This document shows positions 29,870 through 64,000 of a DNA stretch of 64,000 nt, piece by piece. This stretch comes from Candidatus Omnitrophota bacterium (lineage in GTDB: Bacteria > Hinthialibacterota > Hinthialibacteria > Hinthialibacterales > Hinthialibacteraceae). The position numbers were made by a program, and so were the translations under genes. The stretch is taken from NCBI GenBank assembly GCA_016934335.1, contig JAFGTC010000037.1:1-64000 (forward strand), given 5' to 3'. Positions within the stretch are counted from its first letter, which is position 1. Each line of letters starts with the position of its first letter. The notes below the pieces were generated by a model, which was not told where the DNA came from, did no database searches, and saw only the letters and a list, made by a program, of their open reading frames with translations.

Positions 29870-31879
29870 GTGGGCTTCAAGAATTTATTAAATCCCCAGC
29901 AATATGAAGCGGTTACGCATGGCGATGGCCCCCTGTTAGTACTGGCCGGCGCCGGCAGCGGGAAAACGAGAGTCATCGCCTATCGCATCGCTTATTTGAT
30001 CAAAAAACGCAAAATAGCGCCGTCGCAGATTCTTGGCGTGACCTTTACCAACAAAGCGGCGAACGAAATGCGCGAGCGCATCGCCAAATTAGTGGGCAAA
30101 CAGGCGGCGGAATTAACGCTGGGAACTTTCCATTCTCTGGGATTGAAGATCCTGCGCGAGCACGGTAAACATATCGGCTATCGCAGTAATTTTACGATTT
30201 ACAACGAGGGCGATCAGCTTTCTTTGGTGCGCACCCTGATTCGCGAACATCCCCAAAAACGAGAAAAATTCGATGCGGGCCTTTTGCTGTCTCGAATCAG
30301 CAGTTTCAAAAATAAATCGGTTGACGGCGCTTCCCGCTTCTCGGAATTCGGAGATAAATACGACCTGGTTTTCAGCGATGTTTTTCAAGGCTATCAGCAG
30401 CAGTTGCGCGCCTGTCAAGCGGTTGATTTCGATGATCTCATTCTTCTTCCCATCCGTATTCTAACCGACCATGCCGATATTCGCCGCGAATATCTGGAAC
30501 GATTTCAACATCTGCTCGTGGATGAATATCAGGATACCAATCACGGGCAATATTGTTTGATACGTCTGTTGGCGGGGAAAAAGCCCAACCTTTGCGTAGT
30601 CGGCGACGATGACCAGAGCATTTATGCCTGGCGCGGCGCCGAGGTTCGCAACATCCTCCAATTCTCCAAAGATTTTCCCAACGCCAAGGCGATCAAACTG
30701 GAACAGAATTATCGATCCACTCAAGTGATTCTCGACGCCGCTTATCACGTCATCAAAAACAATTCCAAGCGTCAGGAAAAGCGGCTTTGGACGGATCGCG
30801 GTCGCGGGCGAAACATAGATGCTTTTATTGCCCGCGATGAAAACGACGAAGCGAAAACCATCGCATGGCGAATCCAGGCCATCCAGGAAAACACTAAGGC
30901 GCCATGGGGCGATTTCGCCGTTCTTTATCGCAGCAATGTTCAATCGCGGGCGATCGAAAGCGCTTTGCGCATCGCCAAGATTCCGTATGAAGTCGTCGGC
31001 GGGTATGAATTTTTTGAACGGAAGGAGATTAAGGATATCGTCGCCTATCTGCGCGTCATCAATAATCCCCGCGACGATCTCAGCCTTCTACGCATCGTCA
31101 ATGTGCCGCGGCGCGGAATCGGCGGCAATACGATTGTCAAATTGACGGATGCGGCTCATGAGAAGGGATCGCCGGTCATTCAAGCGCTGCGCCAGGCGAA
31201 AAATGACGACGAGGTCTCCCGTCCGGCCATGAGCGGAATTCAAAGTTTCGTCCGTCTCATTGACGAATTGCATCAAGAAATTCCTCATCAACCCGTGCCG
31301 GATTTAGTACGAATGGTGATCGAACGCAGCGGTTACAGAGAGGAGTTGGAGCGCACGATCGATGACGCGGCAATCTCTGCGATCAAGGTTGAAATGGTCG
31401 AAGAAATCGCTTCCGCCGCCGCGGCCTTCGCCGAGTCTCAGCCCAAGGGGAATTTAATGGACTTTATTGACACGATATCCTTGGGCGATGAACCCAACCA
31501 GAATGGGAAAAATAAACGGCGCAAGGGCGAAGCTGTCTTACTGGCGACTCTTCACAGCTCCAAAGGATTGGAATTTCCCTATGTTTTTTTATGCGGGCTG
31601 GAAGAGAAAATTCTGCCTCACGCTCGCTCCTTAAAAGATAATACCGACGTCGATGAAGAACGCCGGCTTTGTTATGTCGGCATGACGCGCGCCCGGCGAC
31701 ACCTTACTTTAAGTTTTACTCAGGAGCGCGTTCAATTCGGGCGCAGGGCCAAAAGAATCCCGTCTCGCTTTCTTAAGGAGATCTCTCCGGATCTTCTCTG
31801 CAAGCAGTTCAGCCATAGCCCCTTCTTTTTTCATCGGCAAAAACTACCTGACGCCTCCGACTCGGCTGAGCAGGAATAA
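29870..31879 (+). CDS. UvrD/Rep/PcrA-like superfamily 1 DNA helicase
   Basis: GTG start. LNPQQYEAV Q-motif, AGAGSGKTRV Walker A, VDEYQDTN, GDDDQSIYAWRGA, QNYRST, LATLHSSKGLEFPYVFLCGLEE. Confidence 0.93.
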   Translation: MGFKNLLNPQQYEAVTHGDGPLLVLAGAGSGKTRVIAYRIAYLIKKRKIAPSQILGVTFTNKAANEMRERIAKLVGKQAAELTLGTFHSLGLKILREHGKHIGYRSNFTIYNEGDQLSLVRTLIREHPQKREKFDAGLLLSRISSFKNKSVDGASRFSEFGDKYDLVFSDVFQGYQQQLRACQAVDFDDLILLPIRILTDHADIRREYLERFQHLLVDEYQDTNHGQYCLIRLLAGKKPNLCVVGDDDQSIYAWRGAEVRNILQFSKDFPNAKAIKLEQNYRSTQVILDAAYHVIKNNSKRQEKRLWTDRGRGRNIDAFIARDENDEAKTIAWRIQAIQENTKAPWGDFAVLYRSNVQSRAIESALRIAKIPYEVVGGYEFFERKEIKDIVAYLRVINNPRDDLSLLRIVNVPRRGIGGNTIVKLTDAAHEKGSPVIQALRQAKNDDEVSRPAMSGIQSFVRLIDELHQEIPHQPVPDLVRMVIERSGYREELERTIDDAAISAIKVEMVEEIASAAAAFAESQPKGNLMDFIDTISLGDEPNQNGKNKRRKGEAVLLATLHSSKGLEFPYVFLCGLEEKILPHARSLKDNTDVDEERRLCYVGMTRARRHLTLSFTQERVQFGRRAKRIPSRFLKEISPDLLCKQFSHSPFFFHRQKLPDASDSAEQE

Positions 31880-55410: not shown

Positions 55411-56451
55411 ATGATCATGTTTACACACAAAAAATCTTCGTTTTATATGTTCTTGTTGTTCGGCGCTGCGATTGTCTTGTTGGCGACCGGCTGTGGACGG
55501 CCGTCCGGAAATGAGACGATTGAGTTATCTTACAGCATTTTCTTCCCACCGACTCACATTCAATGTATAACGGCGATGGATTGGGCCAAAGAGATTGAAA
55601 AACGCTCCCAAGGCCGCGTGAAAATCACTGTTTTCCCCGGCGGCTCATTAAGTAAAGCGCCCCAGGTTTATGAGGGCGTCGTCAATGGAATTTCCGATAT
55701 CGGAATGAGTTGCTTCGCCTATACCCGTGGGAGATTCCCTTTATTGGAGGGATTGGATCTGCCTCTGGGCTATCCTAACGGACTGACGGCGACTCGGATC
55801 GCCACGGCTATGGTCAAGAAATATAATCCGGAGGAAATTTCCGACGTCCATGTTCTGTACATCCACGCTCATGGACCAGGATTATTGGCCAGCAAGAAGC
55901 CGGTGAATAATTTGGAGGAAATGAAGGGCCTGCAAGTTCGCGCGACGGGCTTATCTTCCAAAATTGTTTCGAGTTTAGGCGGCGTTCCCGTGGGGATGAG
56001 TCAGCCTGAAACCTACGAAGCGCTGCAGCGCAGCGTCGTCGAAGCGACTTTCTGCCCGGTAGAAACTTTGAAGGGCTGGAAGCAGGGTGAAGTAATTGAT
56101 TATGTTATTGATACATCTGTTATTGGCTACACGACCGCCATGTTTGCCGTCATGAATCAATCCAAGTGGGAGGCTCTGCCCAAGGATATTCAAGACATTT
56201 TCAATGCAGTGAGCGACGAATGGGTGGATAAACACGGCCAGGCGTGGGATGAAGCGGATGCTAACGGTTGGGCTTTTGTAAAAGAACTGCAGCGTACAAT
56301 CATTCAACTTTCGGATGAAGAAAAGCAGAATTGGAAAAAAGCCGTCGAACCGATTTTGAGTGAATATGTTCAGAACACCCAAGAAAAAGAATTGCCTGGC
56401 GATGCTTTTTTGAAGGATATTCAAGATATGCTGGCGGCTGCGGATCAATAA
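55411..56451 (+). CDS. TRAP transporter substrate-binding protein (DctP family), lipoprotein
   Basis: Lipobox [63 protein letters not shown]. Confidence 0.92.
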
Positions 56452-56486
56452 TCGATCTGGATGATATTAATTGGATTTGTTAATCA

Positions 56487-56984
56487 ATGAAACAATTTTT
56501 TGCAGGCTTCACATCCGCTGTTCGGGCGGTGGTTTACGTGTTGACCGTCGTCTCCGGCTTGGGAATTCTTTTCATGATGGGCGTTACTTGCGCAGATATT
56601 CTTCTCCGAATCGCGGGTCATCCGATTGTCGGCGCCTATGATATTGTAAAAATCACCGGCGCTATATCCATGGGATGCGCTCTGCCCTATACGACGGCTG
56701 TTAAAGGTCATGTGGCTATCGAATTCTTATTTCAAAAAATGAGCCGACCTTGGCGCATTCTCGTAGATACGATCGCTCGTTTGTTATCGATGTCTCTATT
56801 CGGTCTTCTTACCTGGAGGTGCATCGAATACGGCAAAGCGCTGCGATTGAGCGGAGAAGCCACCGCCACATTGGAAATACCCACATTTTGGATTCTCTAT
56901 GTTATGGCGTTTTCATGCGGAGTGGTTGTTCTTATCATCTTCGATCACATGATTCATCCAGGCAAGGAAATGATCAAACCATGA
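56487..56984 (+). CDS. TRAP transporter small permease (DctQ family)
   Basis: Four-TM 165-aa protein between the DctP and DctM genes; DILLRIAGHPIVGAYDIVKI. Confidence 0.9.
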   Translation: MKQFFAGFTSAVRAVVYVLTVVSGLGILFMMGVTCADILLRIAGHPIVGAYDIVKITGAISMGCALPYTTAVKGHVAIEFLFQKMSRPWRILVDTIARLLSMSLFGLLTWRCIEYGKALRLSGEATATLEIPTFWILYVMAFSCGVVVLIIFDHMIHPGKEMIKP

Positions 56985-58282
56985 CTCCCGTTGAATTTGG
57001 AATTCTTGGCTGTTTATTGTTATTGATTTTGTTAATCAGCAGTATGCCGGTGGCTTTCGTCATGGCCGCTGTGGGCGGACTTGGATTCGCGCTGGTAGTG
57101 ACGCCTCATGCATCGTTGAGCATGATTTCCAGCGAGTTTTACGACATCTTTTCCTCATACAGTTTGACGGTTATTCCTTTGTTTGTATTTATGGGCCAAA
57201 TCGCTTTTCACGCCGGCATCAGCCGCCGATTGTTCAATGCGGCGTATCATTGGCTTGGGCCTCTGCCGGGCGGATTGGCGATGGCGACGGTGGGCGCTTG
57301 CACGGCTTTCGGCGCAATTTGCGGCTCCGGTCCGGCGACCGCGGCCACCATGGCGTCGGTCGCCCTGCCGGAGATGAAGCGCTATAAATATGATATGGAA
57401 TTAGGCAGCGGAACCGTGGCGGCGGGGGGCAGTTTAGGAATGTTGATCCCGCCGAGCGTCGTTTTCATCGTCTACGCCATCATGACCGAACAGTCGGTCG
57501 GCAAATTGTTTATTGCAGGAATCGTACCGGGTCTTCTTATTGCGCTTCTGTTTTGTCTCGCCATCTATATCAATTGTCTGCGCCGCCCTGAACTTGGCCC
57601 CTCCGCTCCCAAGACGACATGGAAAGAAAAATTCATCTCGCTCGGGGGCGTCACGGAAACAATCATTTTGTTCGTGCTTGTCATGGGAGGAATGTTTAAG
57701 GGATTTTTTACGCCCACTGAAGCGGCGGCCGTAGGCGCGGCGGGAAGTCTGGTTATCGTGGCGCTGCGCAGGAGTTTGACGTTCAAGGCGCTGCTGAAAT
57801 CCATCCAGGAAACGGTTCGCACCTCATGCATGGTGATTATCATCGTCGCAGGCGCCACCATGTTCGGGCGGTTTTTGGCAATTACCCGAATTCCTTTTGA
57901 ATTGGCCGAATGGCTTGTTGGCTTGCCTTTGCCCGGATGGATCATTATGGGATTTATTATTCTTTTTTATCTCGTCTGCGGTTGTTTCGTCGATGCCTTG
58001 GCTTTAATCATCTTAACGATCCCCATTTTTTCCCCGGTTGTAAGCGCATTGCATTTTGATCCGATCTGGTTCGGCGTGATTATTGTCGTCGTAACGCAGA
58101 TGGGAGTCATTTCTCCTCCCGTCGGCGTCAATGTTTATGTGGTCAGCGGCATGGAGCGAGACATCTCTTTGCAGACAGTGTTTAAGGGAGCGATGCCGTT
58201 TCTTCTCGTTTTGGTGATTTCCGCCGTCTTATTGATTATGTTTCCTCAATTATGCTTGTTTTTACCGGAAATGGTTCATTGA
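56981..58282 (+). CDS. TRAP transporter large permease (DctM family)
   Basis: ATG 56981 overlaps the DctQ stop (ATGA). GSGPATAATMASVALPEM, GGSLGMLIPPSVVFIVYAIMTEQSVGKLFIAGIVPG, FFTPTEAAAVGA. Confidence 0.93.
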   Translation: MTPVEFGILGCLLLLILLISSMPVAFVMAAVGGLGFALVVTPHASLSMISSEFYDIFSSYSLTVIPLFVFMGQIAFHAGISRRLFNAAYHWLGPLPGGLAMATVGACTAFGAICGSGPATAATMASVALPEMKRYKYDMELGSGTVAAGGSLGMLIPPSVVFIVYAIMTEQSVGKLFIAGIVPGLLIALLFCLAIYINCLRRPELGPSAPKTTWKEKFISLGGVTETIILFVLVMGGMFKGFFTPTEAAAVGAAGSLVIVALRRSLTFKALLKSIQETVRTSCMVIIIVAGATMFGRFLAITRIPFELAEWLVGLPLPGWIIMGFIILFYLVCGCFVDALALIILTIPIFSPVVSALHFDPIWFGVIIVVVTQMGVISPPVGVNVYVVSGMERDISLQTVFKGAMPFLLVLVISAVLLIMFPQLCLFLPEMVH

Positions 58283-58308
58283 TATATCCAATCAAGGTGG
58301 TGAATGAG

Positions 58309-58788
58309 ATGACTGGCGCGGATCATCTTTCTTGTGTATGCAAAAGAATTCTATTTTGTACGGATTTCTCGTCGAATGCTCAATTCGCTTTTCAGTTCGC
58401 TCTGAGTGAAGCGTCTCGCTTTCCGAACTGTACTCTCCATTTGCTCCATGTCATCCCTGAGGTGGAGGCGCAGTTTTGGAAGACATATTTGTATGAAATC
58501 GATGGAATCGATGAAAAAGCCAAGCAAGACACGCAGGACAAAATCGCCGAAGATTATCTGCCTCATATTCCGGAGCGAATTTCTTCTCATGTCGAAATTC
58601 GAGTCGGGAAGGATTATCAGACTATATTAGAGTATGCCAGAGAAATCGACTGCGATCTCATTGTCATCGGCAGACAGGGGCAATCCAATTTGCGGAAGGT
58701 TTTATTCGGCAATGTCACAGAAAAGGTGACGCGTCATGCGGAGTGCCCGGTGCTTGTGGTTCCACTTGTCTATCAAACAAAACAGTAA
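58309..58788 (+). CDS. Universal stress protein (UspA family)
   Basis: RILFCTDFSSNAQFAFQFAL, CDLIVIGRQGQSNLRKVLFGNVTEKVTRHAECPVLVVP; likely start 58309 after AAGGTGG. Confidence 0.92.
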   Translation: MTGADHLSCVCKRILFCTDFSSNAQFAFQFALSEASRFPNCTLHLLHVIPEVEAQFWKTYLYEIDGIDEKAKQDTQDKIAEDYLPHIPERISSHVEIRVGKDYQTILEYAREIDCDLIVIGRQGQSNLRKVLFGNVTEKVTRHAECPVLVVPLVYQTKQ

Positions 58789-58889: not shown

Positions 58890-59330
58890 TTGATGCACAA
58901 TTTATTACGTGTTTCCGATGCGGTTTCATTGGCTTTTCATACGTTGTGGCTCTTAGCGGAGCGGCAAAATGAACTTCTCCGCACGCCTGAGATTGCGGAA
59001 ATATTATCTGTATCGGAGCACCATCTCCAGAAAGTACATCAACGATTGGCGAAAGCCGGCTTCATTCGGGCCGTACGCGGCCCCAAAGGCGGCTTTATAT
59101 TAAATCGTTCCCCCGAAAAAATCACCCTGATGCAGATCTATGAGGCGATTGACGGTCCCTTAGAGACGCGCCGATGCATGCTGGGCCGCTCGACGTGCCG
59201 CGTTCAGGATTGTCTTTTAGGAGAACTTGTGGAGGAGGTCAATCAATTGGTACGCCGTCATTTTGAGAAAATCACGCTAGCGGAGTTAGCGAAGACAGAT
59301 TTAGAAAATTCAATGGAAAAAATAGGTTGA
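58890..59330 (+). CDS. Rrf2 family transcriptional regulator with three-Cys motif
   Basis: RTPEIAEILSVSEHHLQKVHQRLAKAGFIRAVRGPKGGFILNR; CMLGRSTCRVQDC cluster-type cysteines. Confidence 0.9.
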   Translation: MMHNLLRVSDAVSLAFHTLWLLAERQNELLRTPEIAEILSVSEHHLQKVHQRLAKAGFIRAVRGPKGGFILNRSPEKITLMQIYEAIDGPLETRRCMLGRSTCRVQDCLLGELVEEVNQLVRRHFEKITLAELAKTDLENSMEKIG

Positions 59331-59725
59331 ATATGGTGAATCTTTCGTTAAACGATAAAAAAAAATCGCACCATCAAAAACCTTTAGGGACAGTGATATG
59401 TAGGCGGATGCGATTGATTGATCCAGAATCTGTAAAAAAAGATCTGGCGATTTTGAATGAATTTGTGCGCATTTTTTGTAAAAATAATCATGAGCGTCAA
59501 ACAGGAGATCTTTTATGCGATGAATGTAGAGATTTACTCGATTATGCGCGGGGTCGACTTGCAGCGTGTCCCTACGATCCAAAGCCAAAATGCAAACACT
59601 GTCTCACGCATTGTTACCGTCTTCCGTATCGAGAGAAGATGAAAGCGGTCATGCGATTCTCCGGCATGTATTTTGTAAAACGGGGGCGCATTGATTGGCT
59701 GCTTAAATATTTCTTTATACGATAG
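59327..59725 (+). CDS. YgbA_NO-like (nitrous oxide-stimulated promoter family) protein
   Basis: ILNEFVRIFCKNNHERQTGDLLCDECRDLLDYARGRLAACPYDPKPKCKHCLTHCYRLPYREKMKAVMRFSG; overlaps the Rrf2 stop codon. Confidence 0.75.
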   Translation: MNMVNLSLNDKKKSHHQKPLGTVICRRMRLIDPESVKKDLAILNEFVRIFCKNNHERQTGDLLCDECRDLLDYARGRLAACPYDPKPKCKHCLTHCYRLPYREKMKAVMRFSGMYFVKRGRIDWLLKYFFIR

Positions 59726-60290
59726 ATTTGTGGAATTTCTCGAAAACTGATTTTATATCTCTCTTACAAATTTTATTTTTAGACCCTGATTCCATTCCCC
59801 CATTTTTTTTATTAGTTCCATCAATCCTCCCAAATAATCTTGCAAAAATTATAAACAACGTATGAATATTGTTTTATAATCCACGATTTATTCAAACATT
59901 GTAATGTAATATTGCATTATCCTGTGAATATATCGCGAAAAAATAATATTTTTCAAATTGGATTTCCTCTGAATTTTACAGAATCGAATAAAATTTTAAA
60001 TAACGTCTTTTTTTTCTTCTTTTTATACGCTAAAATACAAGATGTTGATTTATATAATTTTCTGCTTTTTCCGCACGCAAGATTACCTATTTTAATGTTG
60101 TTGTCTTTCCCAATCGGGCGATTTTTTGGATGAAGAAAACCAGACGGGGCTGACGTTTGACAGCCTGTTGTACGATTGTGCTAAAAGTCTGGGTATGGGG
60201 CAAATGCGTCTATTTTAATTTATAATTTTTGTAGTAAAAGTTGCGGGGCTGTTTTACTATCTTGAGGATATTGAGAAGGAGTATGTCGTC

Positions 60291-63200
60291 ATGGCGTATC
60301 CGTTCATGCCTTTCCAGAGAAAAACATCGGAATGTAATTGGTGGGATAAAGTAAAAACAGTTGGGAGCGATCTGCTCCAAAAGCGCGAAGCGCCTCCCGT
60401 TTTTGATCGTTCCTTCATCGCGAGATATCTGCCCCGCCGTTCGAGGAAGCGATATGCCGCTCCTCGCAAAAAGAAGATGCTTCTCGAAGCCTTGGAGCCG
60501 CGCATTCTGTTATCGGGCGAGACGCTTGATTATACCGCCGATCCCAATACGGCCGCGGATTTAAACCTGCAAGTCTCGGGCAGCGAAATACAGGTCGTAG
60601 ACAACAACACATCAACGGTAGTCGCCCATAAAGAATTAAGCGAAACAAGCGTCGTGAATATTACCGGCTCCCTCTTGGGCGATTCGGTCACGATCGATTC
60701 GATCAATGCCTCCGCCCCTCTGACGATCAATATCCAGGGGAGCGCGGGGGATGATTCCGTGACAATCGAAGGGATATTGTCTCTCGGCGGGGGGGATGTT
60801 TCGGTTCAAGCGGAAACCATTCTTCTCGATGACGGCGGCGCGATCGGCAATGTGGACGATGTCTATCTGACTGCCATCGCCGAAGATTACAATACGGTGA
60901 CAGACGCCGGCGCTCTGGAGGCCAAAAGCGCTTCGATCTCCATCGAAGGAGATATCCAAAGTACGGGCGACATCTCCCTTACTTCGCACGTCACCCGAAA
61001 GATCGATGTCAATGAAACATCGATTTTATCGAGCGCATCTCTTGATTCTTCTTCAACGGCCAGCGTGGAAGTAGGCGGCGGAGCGTCCATCTTTGGATCG
61101 AGTTTGACGATGCATGCCCTTACCGAAGGATTCGTTGATTCTGAATCGGTAAACGCGGCGACTAACACATTTACCGAAAGCGCGATCGCCTCCATTTCGA
61201 ACGCCGTGATCAATGTCGGTCATCTTGATTTGCGAGCGGAAACAGGAACGGATTATTCGGCTAAGGGACGAAACGCTTTTAATAATGTTTCCGGAGAAAC
61301 AAAGGCATTTATTGAAAACAGCATGGTAACAACCGCCGATATCGCCGGCGTTCAGATTGCCGCGCGGGATTTTTCCACGTTAATGGCGGAATCCCCCGAA
61401 CTTTCCATTGATCTGGATCTTCTGGCTGTCGGCGCATCGGTCGATGTGAATTTGGCGCGCAATGCGCTGGAGCGGGATACGGAAGCGTTCATCCAAAATT
61501 CCACTGTGACGGCAGCAAACGGGGACATTGGAATTTCCGCCGAACGGGAAATGAAAGTGGGTGCGACAGTCAGTGCGGCTTCTTTGACTGGAACTTCTAT
61601 AATCGATGGATCTCTCAAGGTGGACGCCAGTTTCGGCGGCTCCTATGCGGCCAACCAGATCCTGGGCGATGTGAGAGCCTACATCGCCGGAGGAAGCGTT
61701 GAAACCGTCGGAGCGGGGGATGTAACGCTTTACGCCGCCGATTTATCCGCGATCGATGCGAAATCCGAAATAAGCATATATTCCAAAACCAATCCTCTCT
61801 CAACCGATTCGCTCTCTGGAGCGTTCGGCGCTTCGATTGCATTCAATGCGATCGGTTGGGAAATCGATAATTTCTTTACGCGGACGATCGATACGCTTCT
61901 AGGAACGGATGTCAATGACGCCGAAAATCCAGCAGACGTAACTGCTTTCATTCAAGATTCCACAGTCTCCGCCGCCGGCGACCTTGCTTTGACCGCCCTA
62001 TCGAAAACGAAAATCAACGCAACGGTCAGCAATGCGGCGGTTTCGACGGCGTCTTCTCTTTATGGCGCGCAGGGAATGGCGGCCAGCGGCGTGTTGGCCA
62101 GCAATTGGATGAGCAGCACCGCTAAAGCATACATCGATTACACCGGCGCCGCGGGGAAAGTGAACGCCAAGGGGAGCATTACAGTTGCGGCGCAGGATCA
62201 ATCCGAAATTCATTCCAACAGCAAGATCGTATCTTCGTCGATCACCACCAGCGACGGCGGCGCCAACGTCTTTAACGACGTGATCGGCCTTATCTTGACG
62301 ACGAAATATTCCACGGAAGACGGCGTGAAAACCGTCGATTTCGGCGACCGGATTTGGATCGCCAATGATTATGATGAAGAATTGGGAAATCCGGGAAGCG
62401 TGTATCAATACATGGGGGAGGATGGCAGCGTAATCGATCTCGGGTCGGAAGATTACACGAATCTGGATTTCTGGAAGGAAGCAACCGAAACGCAGTTAAT
62501 TCCCGAAGGCAATAATTTCACACCCTCCGATTCCATCACCATCGGCGGTCTTGTCGTGCGCAACGATGTACGAAGTGAAGTGGAGTCGTATATCAATAAT
62601 GCCGAAGTTGACGCCGACACGGGAAATATTACTCTGAACACTTTTGAAACGGCCATCATTGAAGCGATAGTGGACAGTGCCTTTGAATCATCGGGAGGCA
62701 GTTCCTTCGGAGATAAAGGCGAATCGATCGCCGTGAACGGCGTCATCGCGACCAATCTCGTGTTGAGTAAATCCAACGCCTATATCGAGGATAGCGCCGT
62801 AACGGCGTCAATCGGTTATGTCAAACTTGACGCCAAGAATGATTCGCGGATCGACGCTAAAAATTTAAACGCTACGGTTTCCGAGGGAGATACGGTCGGC
62901 GTCATTCTCGCTTTCAATACGATCGGTTATCAAGCGCAGAACATACTTTTCAATACGCTCGACGCCTTGTTGGGGCTTGACATCGGCAATCAGCAGCCGG
63001 CGGGAGTGCAGGCCTATATTCTCGATTCCAGCGTGACGGCAGGCGATAATATCTCCCTGTCCGCGGTTTCGTCGGCGTCTTTGAACGCCGAACTCAGCAC
63101 CGAAGCCACTTCGGCGGCCGCCGCTTTTTATGGTTCGGGAACCATGGCGGCCAGCGGCGTCTTGGCCAGTAATATGGTCAGCAGCCTGGCTAAGGCCTAC

Positions 63201-64000
63201 ATCGAGAACACGGATTCTGTTAAATCCGTCGATGCGGGCAGAAACATCAGCATTTATGCGAGAGATGCGGCCGCGATCGACTCGAGCACGTCGCTGGTTA
63301 CCTCTTCGAAAGCGACGAATGACATCGGCGTCGGGATTCTCAACGATTTCATCGATACGCTTTTATATGATTACCAATACACATCCAATTCCGGCCTGCA
63401 AACGCTGCAGTTCGGCGATAAAGTCCGGGTGGCCGGCGATTATGACGATTCCAAAGGCAAGCCCGAGAAAATCTATAAATATATGGGAACCGGCGGCCAA
63501 TATGATCTTGGCAGCCAGGATTACATCGGCGATTACGGCCTTTGGCAGGAACTGGATGCTTCCAATATTATCCCGACCGGCATTGCCAAGGCCGCAATGA
63601 AAATTTTTGATCTAAAAGGCGGCGACATGAAAGGCTATTACGCCATGGTCGTTCGCAATGATGTAAAAAGCGATGTGGAAGCGTATATCGATAACGCCCT
63701 TGTTACAGCTCAGGGCAATATTTTATTGACGGCGCAGGAAAGCGCTCATATTACGGCGGCCGATAACAGCGTCGTCGCCGCCGGCACGGAAAGCAAAGGG
63801 GGCGTCATCGCCGCCAACCAGGTGTTAAGCCGCGCCAACGCTTACATTACAGACAGCCAGGTCGTTACGGATCCCGGATCGTCGGGGAATATTGTTCTTT
63901 CCGGCTTCAACGATTCGCTGATCGACGCCGCTTTGTATACGGAGGCGAACGCCAAGGAGACGATCGGCATTGTGGTCGCTTTTAATGCGATCGGATGGGA
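60291..64000 (+). CDS. Giant LEPR-XLL domain, repeat-rich surface/adhesin-like protein, truncated by window edge
   Basis: Not in ORF track because it runs off the edge. ATG 60291 with GAAGGAG upstream; N-terminus ...KKKMLLEALEPRILLSGETLDYTADPN; open to 64000 with Ala/Ser/Asp/Thr-rich beta-strand-type repeats. Confidence 0.85.
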   Translation, partial: MAYPFMPFQRKTSECNWWDKVKTVGSDLLQKREAPPVFDRSFIARYLPRRSRKRYAAPRKKKMLLEALEPRILLSGETLDYTADPNTAADLNLQVSGSEIQVVDNNTSTVVAHKELSETSVVNITGSLLGDSVTIDSINASAPLTINIQGSAGDDSVTIEGILSLGGGDVSVQAETILLDDGGAIGNVDDVYLTAIAEDYNTVTDAGALEAKSASISIEGDIQSTGDISLTSHVTRKIDVNETSILSSASLDSSSTASVEVGGGASIFGSSLTMHALTEGFVDSESVNAATNTFTESAIASISNAVINVGHLDLRAETGTDYSAKGRNAFNNVSGETKAFIENSMVTTADIAGVQIAARDFSTLMAESPELSIDLDLLAVGASVDVNLARNALERDTEAFIQNSTVTAANGDIGISAEREMKVGATVSAASLTGTSIIDGSLKVDASFGGSYAANQILGDVRAYIAGGSVETVGAGDVTLYAADLSAIDAKSEISIYSKTNPLSTDSLSGAFGASIAFNAIGWEIDNFFTRTIDTLLGTDVNDAENPADVTAFIQDSTVSAAGDLALTALSKTKINATVSNAAVSTASSLYGAQGMAASGVLASNWMSSTAKAYIDYTGAAGKVNAKGSITVAAQDQSEIHSNSKIVSSSITTSDGGANVFNDVIGLILTTKYSTEDGVKTVDFGDRIWIANDYDEELGNPGSVYQYMGEDGSVIDLGSEDYTNLDFWKEATETQLIPEGNNFTPSDSITIGGLVVRNDVRSEVESYINNAEVDADTGNITLNTFETAIIEAIVDSAFESSGGSSFGDKGESIAVNGVIATNLVLSKSNAYIEDSAVTASIGYVKLDAKNDSRIDAKNLNATVSEGDTVGVILAFNTIGYQAQNILFNTLDALLGLDIGNQQPAGVQAYILDSSVTAGDNISLSAVSSASLNAELSTEATSAAAAFYGSGTMAASGVLASNMVSSLAKAYIENTDSVKSVDAGRNISIYARDAAAIDSSTSLVTSSKATNDIGVGILNDFIDTLLYDYQYTSNSGLQTLQFGDKVRVAGDYDDSKGKPEKIYKYMGTGGQYDLGSQDYIGDYGLWQELDASNIIPTGIAKAAMKIFDLKGGDMKGYYAMVVRNDVKSDVEAYIDNALVTAQGNILLTAQESAHITAADNSVVAAGTESKGGVIAANQVLSRANAYITDSQVVTDPGSSGNIVLSGFNDSLIDAALYTEANAKETIGIVVAFNAIGW
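61839..64000 (+). repeat. Degenerate ~1068-1071 bp (356-357 aa) tandem repeat units inside the LEPR-XLL gene
   Basis: AFNAIGW/AFNTIGY/AFNAIGW landmarks at 61839, 62910, 63978; ATGGCGGCCAGCGGCGT at 62076 and 63144. Confidence 0.8.

Follow-up and report, generated by a model that had tools for sequence, protein, structure and literature searches.

A module that brings together a secondary SecA_DEAD protein with HlyD, M50 and GAF proteins was described by Kamneva, Poudel and Ward in 2015, who suggested SecA as the ATPase motor and the M50 protein as the pore (PMC4452313). Secretion was predicted, no substrate was named and the biological role was called "completely unknown"; the text mentions neither giant proteins nor DUF3467 nor LEPR (PMC4452313). 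The gene sets analysed here have SecA_DEAD, M50-HlyD, GAF-HlyD, HlyD and OEP in common with that module, and both are without an ABC transporter (PMC4452313). What we add are LEPR-XLL giants as the likely cargo, frequent DUF3467 or SapC partners, a statistical linkage and a sister system with a variant leader. For LEPR-XLL proteins (NF012209), the open-access texts searched mention the family in passing and assign it neither a function nor a route of export; a report elsewhere is possible.

Type I secretion (HlyB/HlyD/TolC) resembles the module in its HlyD-type adaptors, TolC and giant RTX-like cargo. It differs in its ABC exporter, in place of which the module has a SecA-like ATPase and an M50 protein, and in its C-terminal address label, whereas the label proposed for the module is N-terminal. 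RiPP maturation metalloproteases (daptide_HExxH, NF041824; YydH/LiaK, NF058609) act on precursor peptides. The M50 protein on contig C10 of the genome studied here finds its best NCBIfam match in NF041824 (151 bits, below the cut-off of 300); unlike those enzymes it is fused to HlyD, and its proposed cargo is a giant protein, not a peptide. Since the module has been described and the LEPR-XLL family is known, the novelty lies in the pairing: the giant adds one more protein to its family, and what is new is the connection of cargo, machine and leader.

A LEPR-XLL giant gene at the contig end

The window, the whole stretch of 64,000 nucleotides that was analysed, belongs to a contig of 65,494 bases (G000:C113) from a Candidatus Omnitrophota genome bin. 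From an ATG at 60291 on the forward strand a reading frame stays open to position 64000, as the sequence-only reading had claimed, and extension of the sequence carries it on to the contig end, giving 1734 aa with no stop. The longest open run in 200 base shuffles was 226 codons. A very large protein had been expected, and at least 1734 aa, still open, agree with this and with the size of LEPR-XLL family members; a paralogue in the bin has 6158 aa. The contig stops inside the gene, short of its C-terminus. The 1734-aa frame is rich in Ala (12.2%), Ser (10.7%) and Asp (8.3%), and the body is acidic, with a net charge of –143. A scan of genome contigs with the giant as query detected no relatives because its repeats diverge too quickly. 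LktA_tand_53, searched across 40 relatives, matched the source genome alone and pointed to no second contig that might hold the lost 3′ end.

The LEPR-XLL profile of NCBIfam matches aa 64–85 above its cut-off, confirming the family membership proposed from the letters alone. The giant resembles other LEPR-XLL proteins in the motif score, the N-terminal position of the motif and the giant repetitive body, and differs from a typical member in being cut by the contig end. The earlier impression of a basic region in place of a classical signal peptide also proved right: the 67 residues ahead of the motif have a net charge of +11 and a best 15-residue hydropathy mean of 0.15. None of 24 tested LEPR leaders has a hydrophobic stretch ahead of the motif (no value above 1.6). 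The giant thus lacks the hydrophobic N-terminal signal peptide of the Sec-dependent classes (autotransporter, TPS, T9SS). It starts instead with a basic leader, distinct from a Sec signal peptide, that closes with LEPR-x-LL-S-[AG].

Behind the leader lie LktA_tand_53 repeats (NF012206; 118 bits for the part inside the window and 149 bits for all 1734 aa, cut-off 50), organized in super-repeats of ~357 aa with pairwise identities of 41–43%. An AlphaFold model of the repeat has strand-rich patches of high confidence at an overall pLDDT of 62, and a PDB search with it returned no significant match. To the sequence-only reading this Ala/Ser/Asp-rich body looked like a beta-solenoid adhesin or matrix protein. 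The composition holds; the solenoid fold itself is plausible and unproven, given the overall pLDDT and the empty PDB search. With its repeats, super-repeats and strand-rich model, the giant could plausibly be a repetitive beta-rich filament or adhesin.

Coordinates of the giant gene and of the candidate exporter gene sets in the same genome bin (window positions unless a contig is named)
Feature	Position	Strand	Basis or remark
Shine-Dalgarno-like AGAAGGAG	60274..60281	+	sequence; 9 nt 5′ of ATG
5′ part of LEPR-XLL giant gene	60291..64000	+	frame runs on to G000:C113:65494, stop-free
Basic, non-hydrophobic leader, aa 1-63	60291..60479	+	hydropathy and charge; precedes LEPR motif
LEPR-XLL domain (NF012209), LLEALEPRILLSGE..., proposed export label	60480..60545	+	25.2 bits, cut-off 17
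LktA_tand_53 (NF012206) repeats	61428..63761	+	profile match; further copies at C113:65049-65375, past the window
Super-repeat copy A, ~357 aa	61818..62888	+	43% identity to copy B
Super-repeat copy B	62889..63959	+	AlphaFold strand-rich, mean pLDDT 62
Third super-repeat copy	from 63960, extends past window end	+	repeat comparison
TolC	C10:28020-29423	+	
Adaptor	C10:29432-30343	-	
DUF3467	C10: ~30621-30932	+	
GAF-HlyD	C10:30974-32854	+	
PqqD-M50-HlyD	C10:32864-35011	+	
Complete LEPR-XLL paralogue, 6158 aa, RTX repeats	C10:35574-54050		directly downstream of the C10 exporter set
Second set: SapC, TolC, adaptor, SecA-like, M50-HlyD, GAF-HlyD	C159:319-9699		

Adjacent export genes had been named as a place to look for the route. 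None was found: the 64-kb window contains no exporter or module gene, and the downstream side of the giant is lost with the contig end. The giant's link to an exporter therefore depends on its motif and on the remaining contigs of the bin.

Upstream of the giant, with some genes between, the window has genes for a TRAP transporter and for a universal stress protein (55411–58788). The same kinds of genes precede a LEPR gene in Thalassospira marina (L035:803-5561), an arrangement that may be a coincidence. Directly upstream (58890–59725) are an Rrf2-type regulator and then a YgbA_NO (nitrous-oxide-stimulated promoter family) protein, possibly a nitrosative-stress regulatory pair.

Candidate exporter gene sets in the bin and in other genomes

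The bin holds three LEPR-XLL genes: the window giant, one on C142 that likewise runs off its contig, and the complete one on C10. Its module genes comprise an M50-HlyD gene on each of C10 and C159 and a SecA-like gene on C159; C10 has no SecA-like gene, and the canonical SecA lies on C222. The contigs C113, C10 and C159 are assigned to one genome by metagenome binning, with 4.4% contamination. Judging by this binning and the shared motif, the C10 and C159 sets would serve the window giant. An export route that the sequence-only reading had called unknown now has a specific, well-supported candidate, one that is not T9SS, an autotransporter or ABC-driven type I secretion.

When GTDB genomes were scanned with an M50 alignment, at least 569 relatives came up. 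In annotated Alphaproteobacteria plasmids the order is giant gene, DUF3467, GAF-HlyD, PqqD-M50-HlyD, SecA-like protein, adaptor and, in some, TolC. Among 80 loci of these relatives, from many species, a SecA-like gene lies beside the M50 gene in 78 and a GAF-HlyD gene in 76. The catalytic motifs of the M50 proteins are largely intact (HExGH in 74/80, NxNPxxxxD in 80/80), as is TGEGKT of the SecA-like proteins (69/71). PqqD is a weak Pfam match that reaches or exceeds the cut-off in two module M50 members.

The SecA-like proteins have ~665 aa and form a clade (100/100) separate from canonical SecA, which is also present in each of 14 genomes with a SecA-like protein. They stop near residue 605 of the 841 of B. 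subtilis SecA and so are missing the later regions, namely the helical wing and the two-helix finger. The C159 protein accordingly does not have the full length and C-terminal scaffold regions of canonical SecA.

SapC (PF07277) recurs beside the module in 11/80 loci (L040:319-1062, L029:22260-23081, L083, L085, L089), and proteins of 373–374 aa with a DUF3467-like N-terminus adjoin it in two (L071:3391-4509, L112:4348-5469). The AlphaFold model of DUF3467 has a pLDDT of 63 and no significant PDB match; one idea is that DUF3467 may act as a SecB-like chaperone.

Linkage of leader and machine

LEPR was found in 42 of 50 module-bearing genomes and in 2 of 386 others (an even sample from the class of one module genome), one of the two having a close M50 protein. 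Across a whole family of 351 genomes, LEPR occurs in 55 and a close M50, well separated in score from the remaining M50 proteins, in 59: 48 genomes have both and 285 neither, with exceptions both ways, 11 module genomes having no detected LEPR gene and 7 LEPR genomes no close M50. The odds ratio is 178 with a p-value of 1e-40; related genomes are not independent, and there were fewer independent events than the p-values suggest. In this family 38 of 80 LEPR genes have an M50 gene no more than 60 kb away, in 37 cases on the same strand, and the arrangements are of two stereotyped kinds.

All 13 plasmid records with a close M50, picked without regard to LEPR, contain an adjacent LEPR-type gene. 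Several of these genes are unannotated or are annotated from a start codon that lies beyond the motif; N-termini read directly in four plasmid giants carry LEPRY, LEPRF or YEPR leaders. For Alisedimentitalea WP_343211605 (L033) and R. johnstonii WP_326913003 (L201) the annotated start is downstream of the LEPR motif, and the leader is therefore absent from the public protein records.

Low-scoring M50 matches (≤321 bits) are not plain negatives: they represent a sister system, which has a leader of its own. Neither SecA-like proteins nor DUF3467 were found in the loci of these more distant M50-HlyD proteins, and the sister M50 proteins have no Pfam PqqD match. Beside them stand giants that carry DUF4347 and start with LEPRFMFDAAG in Azospirillum lipoferum AZO_p6 and LEPRMLFDGAI in Kosakonia cowanii. 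An open reading frame with such an FD-type leader (LEPRxxFD[AG]) lies within ~20 kb of the sister M50 gene in 10 of 21 further genomes, which amount to about seven independent lineages because some flanks are nearly identical. No LL-S-type leader was found near the sister M50 in these 21 genomes, Azospirillum or Kosakonia, and in the 80 SecA-type loci a single one of 721 open reading frames has the FD type. The leader variant thus tracks the M50 subfamily. As M50-HlyD is the part common to both systems, this points to M50-HlyD as the recognition component.

In loci L193, L194 and L206-L246 the DUF4347 giants of the sister systems start with LEPR[FMY][ML][FL]D[AG] and score 13–14 bits with NF012209, just below its cut-off, so a second class of leaders seems to escape the profile.

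Candidate export routes

Our best reading is that the giant is probably an acidic, repetitive cell-surface or matrix protein with adhesin-like properties, addressed by its basic LEPR leader to a type I-like exporter built on SecA, M50 and HlyD. In its favour are the motif, the absent signal peptide, the co-occurrence, the adjacency, the intact catalytic motifs and the pairing of leader with M50 subfamily. The leader would be the address label for this dedicated exporter, and the truncated secondary SecA-like ATPase its motor. One membrane protein would combine an M50 zinc metallopeptidase, similar to site-2 proteases, with a PqqD-like domain and an HlyD adaptor. The machine would be completed by a second adaptor, a GAF-HlyD protein and a TolC channel, in many cases also by DUF3467 or SapC. 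The PqqD/M50 part would recognise the leader and may cleave it, and the SecA-like ATPase would push the chain, still unfolded, along a conduit of HlyD and TolC. Physical recognition by the M50 protein, cleavage and translocation are steps that we infer. Counting against this reading are the window free of exporter genes, the joining of the contigs by binning, the C10 set without a SecA-like gene, the 7 and 11 exceptions, the RTX repeats in complete paralogues and the sister M50 proteins without a PqqD match.

LapA-type adhesins have N-terminal regions with a retention role, and the LEPR region could by analogy be merely a retention plug or anchor, with classical ABC-driven type I secretion acting through a C-terminal signal. 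RTX nonapeptides, which elsewhere go with C-terminal type I signals, occur in the complete paralogue and several relatives, and TolC and HlyD-type adaptors are common to both machines. We nevertheless consider this route unlikely: no type I ABC exporter gene was seen in the annotated neighbourhoods examined, the leader variant goes with the M50 subfamily, and Kamneva et al. report no ABC transporter in the module (PMC4452313).

Machine and LEPR giants might also just occur together through horizontal transfer and a common lifestyle with large genomes and biofilm, the LEPR-XLL motif having an unrelated role such as keeping the chain unfolded. Kinship of the genomes does inflate the statistics, and the association is imperfect; however, same-strand adjacency in 37 of 38 cases and in stereotyped order, linkage in 13/13 plasmids and the leader–machine pairing in two sister systems make mere coexistence distinctly improbable. 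Accessory SecA systems occur in Gram-positives, and the intact ATPase motifs would suit a secondary SecA assisting SecYEG as in SecA2 systems, with an atypical signal and M50 as processing protease, but this is scarcely credible given a hydrophobic core in 0/24 leaders, a SecA-like protein ending near residue 605 with the later regions missing, and no secY duplicate in the annotated clusters examined.

Returning to a dedicated exporter, we lean slightly towards a broader view in which LEPR-type leaders would label cargo for a two-branched Gram-negative family built on PqqD/M50/HlyD, with no ABC transporter and no Sec signal peptide: one branch would combine the truncated SecA-like motor with LEPRxLLS[AG] leaders, the other would lack this motor and have LEPRxxFD[AG] leaders on DUF4347 giants. 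If true, this would be a class of secretion in its own right, one that serves the largest proteins of bacteria. The pairing itself, if true, would let LEPR-XLL giants without an assigned route and a secondary-SecA/M50/HlyD module without cargo explain each other, and it bears on how bacteria export proteins of 5,000–19,000 residues.

The longest LEPR-type open frame in the survey (G740:C1:75030, reverse strand) has 19,202 residues; an M50 gene lies ~4.6 kb past its estimated end.
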